DNA of 64,000 nt, from assembly GCF_019343455.1 (NCBI RefSeq), contig NZ_CP049362.1, positions 868,001 through 932,000 on the forward strand, given 5' to 3'. Source of the DNA: Alcaligenes ammonioxydans (GTDB lineage: Bacteria > Pseudomonadota > Gammaproteobacteria > Burkholderiales > Burkholderiaceae_B). The first letter of the stretch is position 1; each line of letters begins with the position of its first letter. Both the position numbers and the translations under genes were made by a program. The notes beneath the pieces were generated by a model. That model did not search any database. It saw only the letters and a program-made list of their open reading frames with translations, and was not told the DNA's origin. This document shows, in pieces, positions 1 through 2,802 of the stretch.

Positions 1-1918
1 TGAGCTCCTTGCCAAAATAGAAATCCCGCTTGCAGTCCCGGGTACCGTAATACAGGTACATGGGACGATGGCGTGTGTTGTCTCGAATAAAGCCAGCCAG
101 TGGGGCGACGCCGGTCCCTGCGCCGATCAGCACCACCGGGCGTCGGGAGCCGGTAAGCGTGAAGCCGGGGTTGGGTCGGATGAAGGCTTGAGTCGTGTCC
201 CCGATGTGCAGGCTATGCAAATAGGGAGAGCAGACTCCGCCGCTGGTGTGTCGCACACAGATTTCCACGAATCCATCCTGTTTGCCTGAGGCCAGAGAGT
301 AGTAGCGTGGGACTGACTGCTCACCGGGAGGAAGAATGCCCAGCAGGTCTCCGGCCGCGAAGCGTGCCAAGGGCTGGTCGGGCAGCGCAAAGCGCAGGAT
401 GACGGCAGGCTGGCCCGCTGCACCGGGAAAGTCCTGGCGTGACAGCAGGGTCAGGCTTGCCATGCGCGGCAGTCGGGGTTGATAGGCCAGCGGCACAGGT
501 TGACCCAGTACGTCGGACAGTGCGCGCCCCCAGCGGGCAAATTCCTGGGGGGACTGCTGATGGATACGCTCCAGCGCCATCAAGGGTTGCCACCCCCGTT
601 CCCGTAAGCTGTGTTCGAGCGCGTTGGCAAATCCGCAGAAATCAGGAAACTGGCGATCCCCAAACCCTAGAACGGCGACTTGAGCGTCGGTGGGTGGCTG
701 GCTGGCGATCCGCTTGAGTGCTTTTTGTGCGTGGGCAGGAGGCTGGCCTTCACCGTACGTGGCGGCGAGGATATACACATGGCGTGCCGCGGGCGGCACC
801 CGCCAGTTCTCCAGCGATGTGGTATGAACCTGACGGCCCATGGCTTTGAGGGCATCGTGCAACGCTTGCGCAAAGCCCCAGGTACTGCCGCCTTCACTCG
901 CGACAAAAATCAGGCTGTCGGCCTGGGTCAGAGGGCTATTGCCTTTAAGTCTGGGGCGGCTGCGGCGCGCTTGCCACCACATCAGAAGGCCTGTGTACCA
1001 GAACAGGGGGATGCTCGCTGCCGACAGGCACAGAAAAACAGCCCACAGCCAGGCTCCCTCTCCGGTATGCAAAAGCAGGGCCCAGTCGTAGAGGCGCTGT
1101 GCCTGGGTGGATGCTTCCCACGCCAAGGTCTGGCCCCTGTACTGGTCCGCCCAGCCCTGCCCTTGAGCGGTGACCACACGCCAGGTGTCCTGTGGATCAT
1201 CGGGCGTGGGCAGATTGAGCCGTTCCAGATCCTGCGCGCGCAAGCTCCGAAGCAGTTCGATCTGGTCCGGGGGAAGGGGTGGCTGTCCGGTGGCTTGTGA
1301 GCTCACCTCGGGCTCCGTGTCCGGACTCAGGGTAATGAGCTCGAACGTGCTGGCGCTCATGTAAAGAGCGGTGGCTGAGGACAGGGCCAGGATCAGCACA
1401 ATGACCCTGCCGCTCAGGACATGCAGGCGTTGGGGCAGGGTTCCGCGAACGGGGCCGGCAAGACCCCGCCATCCTCCCATGCGACGCAGCAGCAGTAGGA
1501 GTCCGGACACGGACAAGACCAACATGGCCAGCGCCACCATGGCGGCGGTAATGCGCCCCGGATCGTCCATCAAGAAAGTACGATGCAGGTTCTTGACCCA
1601 GCGTGGCAGCAGGGAAGCCTGGTAGTCCCCCAGAATCTTGCCATCTGCCGGGTCCACACGTACGGCCTGGGCTTGTCCGTCCTCAAACGCATAGACAACG
1701 AAGATCCCCGAGGGCAGATGACGGATTTCTTCTGCGCCAGGGACGGTGCCCTTGATGCGCTCAACCAGTGTGGCAAGCGGCAGGTCGGACTCGGTTGGAG
1801 CCGCCTGTACGGCGTTACGCAAGGGGTCAAGTGCCAACATCGTGCCCGTGATACCCAGAACCAGCGCGAGGGTGCCCGCTACCAGCCCCAGCCATCGATG
1901 GACGAATCGCCAGATCAT
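1..1918 (-). CDS. PepSY membrane / flavodoxin / FNR reductase, C-terminus cut by window edge
   Basis: Open frame of 639 codons running off the window start; the distal NADPH-domain end is missing. The ATG at 1918 follows AAGGAA and lies 9 bases after the upstream stop. An N-terminal PepSY-type membrane part holds about four hydrophobic helices (residues ~5-27, ~130-155, ~175-195, ~275-300) with His residues near their ends (HRWLG, LHRTF, LLHTG). A flavodoxin domain starts near residue 335 (LIFVASEGGST, FMN phosphate loop). An FNR-like domain follows with RYYSLAS (FAD), GGVCSPYL and GAGTGVAP (NADPH). The family moves electrons from NADPH through FAD and FMN into or across the inner membrane and is often annotated as sulfite reductase flavoprotein or iron-uptake reductase. 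Last known gene of an operon with PepSY and DUF2271 proteins. Exact electron acceptor unknown. Confidence 0.88.
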   Translation of the reverse strand, partial: MIWRFVHRWLGLVAGTLALVLGITGTMLALDPLRNAVQAAPTESDLPLATLVERIKGTVPGAEEIRHLPSGIFVVYAFEDGQAQAVRVDPADGKILGDYQASLLPRWVKNLHRTFLMDDPGRITAAMVALAMLVLSVSGLLLLLRRMGGWRGLAGPVRGTLPQRLHVLSGRVIVLILALSSATALYMSASTFELITLSPDTEPEVSSQATGQPPLPPDQIELLRSLRAQDLERLNLPTPDDPQDTWRVVTAQGQGWADQYRGQTLAWEASTQAQRLYDWALLLHTGEGAWLWAVFLCLSAASIPLFWYTGLLMWWQARRSRPRLKGNSPLTQADSLIFVASEGGSTWGFAQALHDALKAMGRQVHTTSLENWRVPPAARHVYILAATYGEGQPPAHAQKALKRIASQPPTDAQVAVLGFGDRQFPDFCGFANALEHSLRERGWQPLMALERIHQQSPQEFARWGRALSDVLGQPVPLAYQPRLPRMASLTLLSRQDFPGAAGQPAVILRFALPDQPLARFAAGDLLGILPPGEQSVPRYYSLASGKQDGFVEICVRHTSGGVCSPYLHSLHIGDTTQAFIRPNPGFTLTGSRRPVVLIGAGTGVAPLAGFIRDNTRHRPMYLYYGTRDCKRDFYFGKEL

Positions 1919-1927
1919 GTGGATTCC

Positions 1928-2407
1928 TTACTGCAACTGATAGGTCAGGGATTGAATATATTGTTTACCTGCCTGGGGCGAACCGGCATTGGCGGCAGTC
2001 AGGGGAACACGGATTTCCGAAGGGCTGTCCCGCATGTCTTCGGCGGCAGCATCGACACGCAGCTCGTACCCGGCATCAATCAGGGCATCCTCCAGTTCTG
2101 CGGTCACCTCCAGCGTGCGCCCGGCACCGACGCTGGCGCCTGTTACGCCTTGCAGACGTTGCCCATCGCCGGCTGACAGGCGATTCCAGTCCGACAGATG
2201 TTTGTAGTATTTGGCTTTGCCGCCGGCGACCCACAGCGTGCGCACGTAGGCGCCTTGGGCATCGGTCAGGTAGACCGCCAGGTAGGCCCCGTCACCGCCA
2301 TAGTTTTTCAGAGTGGTGGAAAGTGCCACAGTACGGCCCTGCGCTAAAGTGGGCAGGGCCACGCTACAGGCTGCAGCCAGGGTGGTGAGAAGAAAGCGTT
2401 TGGACAT
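1928..2407 (-). CDS. DUF2271 periplasmic protein, possible flavinylated electron carrier
   Basis: About 159 residues. The ATG at 2407 is preceded by a clear GGAGG; a longer upstream extension lacks a better site. An N-terminal signal peptide (MSKRFLLTTLAAACSVALPTLA) predicts export. The body matches DUF2271 (YGGDGAYLAVYLTDAQGAYVRTLWV, then KYYKHLSDW). A central QGVTGAS resembles the Dxx(S/T)GA(T/S) motif in which ApbE enzymes attach FMN to Ser/Thr; the leading Asp is replaced by Gln, so flavinylation is inference. It sits between a secreted PepSY protein and the PepSY-FNR reductase with short gaps, which suggests it receives electrons from that reductase. No apbE gene lies in the window. Confidence 0.85.
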   Translation of the reverse strand: MSKRFLLTTLAAACSVALPTLAQGRTVALSTTLKNYGGDGAYLAVYLTDAQGAYVRTLWVAGGKAKYYKHLSDWNRLSAGDGQRLQGVTGASVGAGRTLEVTAELEDALIDAGYELRVDAAAEDMRDSPSEIRVPLTAANAGSPQAGKQYIQSLTYQLQ

Positions 2408-2481
2408 ATTGGTCCTCCAGGGTGAGCAAAGTGAAACGACTTCAGGATGGGAGTAAGAGCGGCGGCACTCAGGCACACGCG

Positions 2482-2802
2482 TTAGTGGCTTCTTTCGCGG
2501 TCACGTTCGCGCTCCGGTTTGTCATGGCCATCGCGCACTTTCATTTTCACGACGCGCAGCGTTTGCGGATCAAGCTTGGCTTTAAATGAGCGACCCTGGG
2601 CATCCCGCCCGCGGATTTCATAGCAGCCGTCGTCTATTTTCAGGCGTTGCACCTCCCAGCCCAGACTGGCGGCATGTTCCAGCGCAGCATCCCGGCTCTG
2701 CCATTGCTGTACGGGGACATCACAGTCGTCGTCAGCATGGGCTGGAGCGACCATCAGGGACAGACAGAGGTACACAATAAGCAGGCAGGGGCGGTGTTTC
2801 AT
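2482..2802 (-). CDS. Small secreted PepSY-domain protein
   Basis: 106 residues with a signal peptide ending near APAHA-D, so periplasmic. The rest is one PepSY unit: an aromatic-rich helix (AALEHAASLGWEVQRLKI), a strand pattern DGCYEIRGRDAQG, and a final strand LDPQTLRVVKMKV. The tail is highly charged (DGHDKPERERDRERSH). Start ATG at 2802 has AAGGAA upstream. First gene of the three-gene PepSY/DUF2271/FNR unit. PepSY domains in such settings are thought to assist redox or protein-protein contacts; no enzymatic residues are seen. Two Cys residues near the mature N-terminus and mid-domain could form a disulfide. Confidence 0.85.
   Translation of the reverse strand: MKHRPCLLIVYLCLSLMVAPAHADDDCDVPVQQWQSRDAALEHAASLGWEVQRLKIDDGCYEIRGRDAQGRSFKAKLDPQTLRVVKMKVRDGHDKPERERDRERSH

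Follow-up and report, generated by a model that had tools for sequence, protein, structure and literature searches.

A PepSY-like flavinylation operon of Alcaligenes ammonioxydans: a predicted exported flavin carrier and an ApbE without export signal

How could a protein that leaves the cytosol receive a covalently bound flavin from an enzyme that bears no export signal? This question is raised by an operon at the edge of a 64,000-nucleotide stretch of the Alcaligenes ammonioxydans genome (contig NZ_CP049362.1, positions 868,001 to 932,000; hereafter the window, in whose own numbering positions are given below). Its four genes all lie on the minus strand, in the order PepSY_2 protein, DUF2271 protein, PepSY_TM/flavodoxin/FNR reductase and apbE. 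We propose that they probably form a self-contained module exporting electrons across the membrane, in which flavin mononucleotide (FMN) would be attached by ApbE to Ser92 of the DUF2271 protein. The pairing of a substrate predicted to be exported with a signal-less ApbE is new: it was no part of the original prediction made on this DNA, and the mismatch is not discussed in the titles, abstract openings and passages of the literature that we found. Since the operon ApbE lacks an export signal while DUF2271 has one, we lean slightly towards FMN being attached in the cytosol, on the newly made DUF2271 chain, before export.

A conserved motif and a linked apbE

The original prediction described a secreted PepSY protein, a DUF2271 protein with a signal peptide and a PepSY/flavodoxin/FNR reductase encoded in one operon, and proposed the second as a covalent FMN carrier. 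Pfam matches and gene coordinates bear out this three-gene arrangement, and apbE, which was to be sought just beyond the window start, is present there as the fourth gene (L003:8777-9754, that is G000:C1:866777-867754, minus strand; 325 aa, PF02424 with E 8.8e-75). Its ATG lies within the end of the reductase gene, giving a 20-base overlap. The solved ApbE structures 5mgy (E 2.4e-51) and 3pnd (E 4e-47) are among its relatives. The genome holds one DUF2271 gene and two ApbE genes; the second ApbE, as judged by eye, has a twin-arginine-like start and follows nos-type genes.

The DUF2271 protein (159 aa, positions 1928..2407, minus strand; PF10029, E 2.7e-34) carries the motif QGVTGAS at residues 86-92 (positions 2132..2152, minus strand), a conserved alignment column in which Ser92 is the predicted FMN acceptor. 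DUF2271 relatives split in two: a classic group (for example, DGVSGATKPVG) and the window's own, which we call type B (GVTGASVGAGRTL). Type-B proteins are 19-26% identical to four classic members, and 46-96% identical to one another inside the aligned type-B set. On these sequence comparisons, type B is a distinct subfamily and its motif is new.

Our type-B sample comprises 90 loci. Besides the present one, it has 9 that came from relatives and 80 that a genome scan supplied; the latter are the best 80 of at least 554 relatives, with close relatives over-represented. Three same-contig duplicates (L086, L087 and L096) were dropped to give 87 distinct loci, while the near-identical L048 and L049 and two loci of a single metagenome-assembled genome (L105 and L107) were kept. 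In one further genome search, 60 of the 68 places above the cut-off were taken.

The motif of the window is no chance match, because it occupies the same alignment column in 63 aligned type-B members and is found at all 87 distinct loci. Its last three residues, GAS, are invariant, so that the acceptor is Ser throughout (87/87). The first position reads D in 31 loci, N in 22, Q in 17, A in 12, T in 2, and S, E and V in one each; L071 and L111 have QGVTGAS. A phylum-wide sample adds nine type-B loci, six with D at the first position and all nine with Ser as acceptor. Among classic proteins with a recognisable motif, Asp occupies the first position in 41 of 45 and Thr is the acceptor in 45 of 45; these figures exclude the 17 of 62 classic proteins that lack a pattern match. 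The original prediction had cautioned that the Asp to Gln change makes the motif non-canonical. It does depart from the D-x-x-[S/T]-G-A-[S/T] pattern, at the Asp alone, and the worry is largely answered by the variability of this position in the subfamily: Gln is ordinary for type B, as only 31 of 87 loci have Asp.

Two side observations concern the classic group. Twelve of its 45 motifs read [ST]GPT instead of [ST]GAT (L185, L187, L188, L190, L193, L194, L207, L218, L221, L225, L229 and one unnamed locus), and all 11 named loci carry an ApbE match, making this a second natural deviation from the ApbE motif as published. Besides, ApbE and DUF2271 are fused in a single chain at L230, L232 and L233; by eye, these fusions have an N-terminal hydrophobic, export-like segment, and none gives a match to our [ST]GA[ST] patterns.

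The four genes are found on one strand within 6.5 kb at 82 of the 87 distinct type-B loci. Contig ends truncate three of the five incomplete loci; the reductase is missing from the other two, together with ApbE at L068 and with PepSY_2 at L118.

Is the linked ApbE competent? Beyond its PF02424 match, it has the catalytic His and Asp and an iaKGyavD stretch, as expected of a flavin transferase. Counting from the GPTMGT motif, His230 and Lys147 are present in 82 of 82 type-B ApbEs and Asp258 in 81 of 82. By our own reading, His230 and Asp258 would correspond to two residues, His257 and Asp285, that the review PMC12052999 mentions for Vibrio cholerae ApbE in one passage. At position 171, the two classes separate completely, with Asp in 82/82 type-B ApbEs and Gly in 39/39 classic DUF2271-linked ones. 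Perhaps the type-B enzyme-substrate pair drifted from the canonical motif in connection with this Gly-to-Asp change. Asp171 as a proven compensation for the first motif residue was rejected: it is present whatever that residue is (82/82), and is therefore a clade mark.

A model of the DUF2271 protein obtained with AlphaFold2 (mean predicted local distance difference test score 82.7) consists mostly of beta strands, with the motif within a loop. No solved relative was found by sequence search (E up to 1), and the fold search gave no match at E up to 0.001, the best being C2 domains (E 0.014).

According to passages of Méheust et al. 2021 (PMC8238504), a DUF2271 protein is an ApbE substrate flavinylated at this motif, as proven by co-expression with its cognate ApbE and by a Thr-to-Ala change. 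This published relative, the operon apbE and the conserved motif all support the proposed FMN carrier, and we consider it very likely that the DUF2271 protein of the window is flavinylated.

Exported DUF2271, signal-less ApbE

The DUF2271 protein begins with an export-signal-like segment (about residues 1-24; positions 2336..2407, minus strand). An in-frame GTG exists upstream, at 2476; the ATG at 2407 leads into the signal-like segment. As an export score, we took the highest mean Kyte-Doolittle hydropathy of any 10-residue stretch near the N-terminus; for ApbEs, the reading was extended upstream as far as the preceding stop codon, to a limit of 60 residues ahead of the start motif. DUF2271 scores 1.9 or more at all 87 type-B loci. 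ApbE could be scored at 82: L068, L083, L117 and L122 have no ApbE match, and the match at L090, the last of 83, has no start motif. None of the 82 presents an export-like segment, even back to the upstream stop (scores of 1.64 or less); the maximum is 0.99 in the 71 whose motif is preceded by 60 residues or fewer, higher values coming from long upstream extensions. A hydrophobic N-terminal segment is likewise absent from seven further type-B ApbEs (0/7). In 71 of the 82, the N-terminus resembles MPKTSSE; in our genome, this stretch is encoded where apbE overlaps the last codons of the reductase gene. The overlap led us to consider reductase and ApbE as one chain; ApbE would be cytosolic in either case.

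The operon ApbE shows neither the N-terminal export signal nor the lipoprotein signal of a periplasmic-type ApbE. The unfused ApbEs of classic loci behave similarly, with scores below 1.9 in 33 of 39, and two of the six above this value have a clear lipobox (L028 and L199); two unfused ApbEs and the three ApbE-DUF2271 fusions, without a start-motif match, were left out of the 39. This suggests that a missing signal is the rule among DUF2271-linked ApbEs. The Fisher value of the classic/type-B survey (1.5e-9) is indicative only, because related sequences are not independent. In another genome of the genus (G004, a single contig rated 100% complete), the operon ApbE is the sole ApbE match.

Type-B DUF2271 signals look like Sec signals. 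We tentatively extend our proposal to PepSY/DUF2271 systems in general, in which a signal-less ApbE may act in the cytosol on the DUF2271 precursor, leaving Sec to export a chain that already bears FMN. Flavinylation before export, if true, would solve the problem of flavin adenine dinucleotide (FAD) supply in the periplasm. Should the topology hold, a common class of periplasmic flavoproteins would be matured in the cytosol. The place where ApbE is thought to act would then shift, it would have to be asked in what way Sec deals with a chain that bears a flavin, and the motif Asp, whose importance is disputed between published tests, would prove dispensable in a natural family.

Electron route and competing readings

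The reductase gene (727 aa, minus strand) covers positions 1..1918 and runs past the window start (whole gene, L003:9735-11918). Four Pfam domains are recognised in its product: PepSY_TM (PF03929, E 2.9e-37), Flavodoxin_1 (E 2e-13), FAD_binding_6 (E 9e-7) and NAD_binding_1 (E 3e-13). Four histidines, placed at the ends of four hydrophobic helices or close to them, are unchanged across 10 of 10 homologues and are the predicted heme ligands: His7 (positions 1898..1900) and His166 (1421..1423) on the cytosolic side, His112 (1583..1585) and His284 (1067..1069) on the periplasmic side, all on the minus strand. A profile of the N-terminal half finds FoxB (PDB 7abw) with E 6.7e-7, and aligns His7, His112 and His284 with its LLHR, EFHHNL and YPIHGG stretches, respectively. 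The fourth conserved ligand of the FoxB-like set, His166, is not aligned to FoxB and is assigned by its position in the third helix only. FoxB is not among the matches listed for the single reductase sequence (60 of 82) or for the full-length profile (60 of 207). The C-terminal half matches NADPH-P450 reductase, nitric oxide synthase (NOS) reductase and the sulfite reductase flavoprotein, with profile E-values of about 1e-42 to 1e-45, and the AlphaFold2 model is in accord with this. Our proposal of hemes rests on the sequence profile, because the AlphaFold2 model of the reductase has a predicted template modelling score of only 0.53 and the 50 Foldseek matches listed are all diflavin proteins.

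The route that we envisage would start with reduction by NADPH (or NADH) of the FAD of the cytosolic FNR domain, NADPH being inferred as the preferred donor from the diflavin relatives. Electrons would pass to the FMN of the flavodoxin domain and then cross the membrane via two b hemes, held by His7/His166 on the inner side and His112/His284 on the outer side. From there, they would reach the FMN covalently held by Ser92 of the exported DUF2271 protein, and finally a periplasmic acceptor. The operon ApbE would attach this FMN in the cytosol, where FAD is plentiful. An inside-to-periplasm direction of flow appears quite likely. In the secreted PepSY_2 protein (106 aa, positions 2482..2802, minus strand; PF13670, E 7.1e-25), the N-terminus is signal-like and the mature part contains two Cys; homologues occur in most other type-B operons, and the protein probably serves in the periplasm as a partner or sensor.

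What could the acceptor be? By analogy, it may be a metal, most likely a chelated one such as Fe(III) or Cu(II), a suggestion to which we give slightly less than even odds. Reduction of metal chelates is the best guess from the relatives VciB, FoxB, CrpH and the Caulobacter cluster. The characterised PepSY_TM proteins named in passages of PMC13038864 act as ferrisiderophore reductases, and the same passages link CrpH to copper-dependent oxidases. PepSY-like clusters are repressed by Fur in Shewanella and Caulobacter (PMC8238504), and the Caulobacter cluster matters for growth with ethylenediaminetetraacetate (EDTA), according to passages of PMC11870441. A metal acceptor nevertheless remains a guess, because a scan of the surrounding 13.5 kb gave no Fur box (at most three mismatches to the 19-bp Escherichia coli consensus, which misses diverged boxes) and no metal transporter is evident by eye among its neighbours.

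Alternatively, the module may supply reducing power for something other than metals, such as periplasmic protein repair or a PepSY/two-component envelope-stress response. This reading is a possible one, in our view somewhat doubtful in turn: the published iron and copper links, Fur repression and growth with EDTA all speak against it, whereas the missing E. coli-type Fur box and the surroundings of other type-B operons speak for it. A divergent response regulator is found upstream at 30 of the 90 type-B loci (for example, L093 and L120), together with a histidine kinase in 27 and a further PepSY protein in 26 of these 30, which suggests two-component control of the operon at such loci; there is none at our own locus. 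These flank counts are rough, having been obtained with a greedy open reading frame picker and phmmer using six queries from the loci.

Could ApbE instead act in the periplasm, after export of DUF2271? It would then have to be exported non-classically, by leakage or carriage with a partner, which we find unlikely. Passages of the review PMC12052999 describe typical ApbEs as periplasmic and note cytosolic ones for cytosolic targets, and report no in vivo complementation by Salmonella ApbE when it was produced in the cytosol. Moreover, an export or lipoprotein signal can be recognised by eye in 8 of 12 control ApbEs not encoded beside DUF2271 (the second, NosX-like ApbE of our genome, L002, and 11 in relatives, taken from 30 loci listed of 53 matches). 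The absence of any signal-like segment from all 82 scored type-B ApbEs and the 20-base overlap of the apbE start with the reductase gene in our genome argue against this route. Carriage by twin-arginine translocation (Tat) is also improbable: of 87 type-B DUF2271 frames, only 4 have an RRx[hydrophobic] string ahead of the motif, in part upstream of the likely start, and our own start, MSKRFLL, has at most a faint resemblance to a Tat signal.

Several further points weigh against our preferred reading, flavinylation of type-B DUF2271 by a cytosolic ApbE in a self-contained operon. As to location, the cytosol-made Salmonella enzyme has already been mentioned, the literature passages that we found do not mention Sec export of an FMN-bearing chain, our hydrophobicity score is a rough stand-in for a signal-peptide predictor, and the signal-less ApbE is not unique to the DUF2271-linked class, as 4 of the 12 controls also lack a signal. 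As to flavinylation itself, the 17 of 62 classic DUF2271 proteins without a motif match imply that not every DUF2271 need be flavinylated. The first-position Asp is missing at 56 of 87 type-B loci and the acceptor is Ser, where a passage by one group calls the motif Asp 'essential' (PMC10722498) and ApbE reportedly uses Ser less well than Thr (passages of PMC10722498 and PMC12052999). Linkage is also looser in the phylum-wide sample, with all four genes in just five of nine type-B loci: L239 and L240 lack an ApbE match, L236 and L238 a PepSY_2 match, and L240 a reductase match as well.

That type-B DUF2271 proteins are not flavinylated at all, their motif loop having another role and ApbE modifying some other cytosolic protein, would accord with the departures from the canonical motif just cited, with the apparently cytosolic ApbE and with the [ST]GA[ST] string held somewhere in 14 of 88 type-B reductase open frames, but we regard it as very unlikely in view of the invariant GAS, the linkage of the genes at 82 of 87 loci, the relative proven flavinylated, the minor effects of a D-to-A change in the Klebsiella substrate motif (a passage of PMC12052999) and the absence of such a string from our own reductase, as from our own PepSY_2 and ApbE frames.

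Read by eye, the genes flanking the operon are amiC and tsaE on one side, and a VTT-domain gene followed by mutL and miaA on the other. In the genus, no DUF2271 match was found in six of ten genomes (our own being counted in the ten), and the version of the operon in G004 (L037) has a DUF2271 protein only about 60% identical to ours and a two-component system upstream. The operon is patchy in the genus and was probably moved horizontally. Elsewhere, L044 has look-alikes of a VIT1-type iron/manganese transporter and of an NRAMP transporter upstream of the operon (by eye), and at 8 of the 90 type-B loci (for example, L062 and L076) a multi-pass membrane protein, MgtC/SapB-like by eye, lies upstream on the opposite strand.

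Relation to known systems

The core idea is not new, since PepSY-like flavinylation systems and a flavinylated DUF2271 protein have already been described (PMC8238504). PepSY-like clusters with ApbE and DUF2271 occur in many genomes, with a suggested role in iron reduction, and 1077 PepSY-like genes of that study also carry a NAD-binding domain. As defined in passages of the same paper, such a system has a PF03929 or PF16357 gene in a flavinylation-associated cluster, that is, among the five genes on either side of ApbE, FMN-bind, DUF3570 or DUF2271, with at least one target bearing an export signal. The present operon is a member of this kind: PF03929 stands beside PF10029 and PF02424, and DUF2271 has its export-signal-like segment. 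It shares with the published systems the clustering of apbE with a PepSY membrane protein and an exported DUF2271 protein that bears [S/T]GA[S/T]. However, type-B operons use Ser, with a variable first motif position, and have PepSY_2 where published clusters often list DUF4198. Their ApbE lacks an export signal, whereas that of A. ursilacus has one, according to a passage of PMC8238504.

The other likenesses are partial. The reductase has the PepSY_TM core and heme-ligand histidines of FoxB, the ferrisiderophore reductase of Pseudomonas aeruginosa; FoxB, however, is a 382-residue chain without the flavodoxin/FNR half, while here the electron donor is fused. With P450 reductase, NOS reductase and the sulfite reductase flavoprotein it shares the flavodoxin and FAD/NAD(P)H domains, but its diflavin half is joined to a PepSY_TM membrane domain. 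Finally, the cytosolic ApbE of Klebsiella pneumoniae also has no signal peptide, as described in a passage of the review PMC12052999. Its substrate, however, is a soluble cytoplasmic fumarate reductase, while the substrate predicted here is exported.

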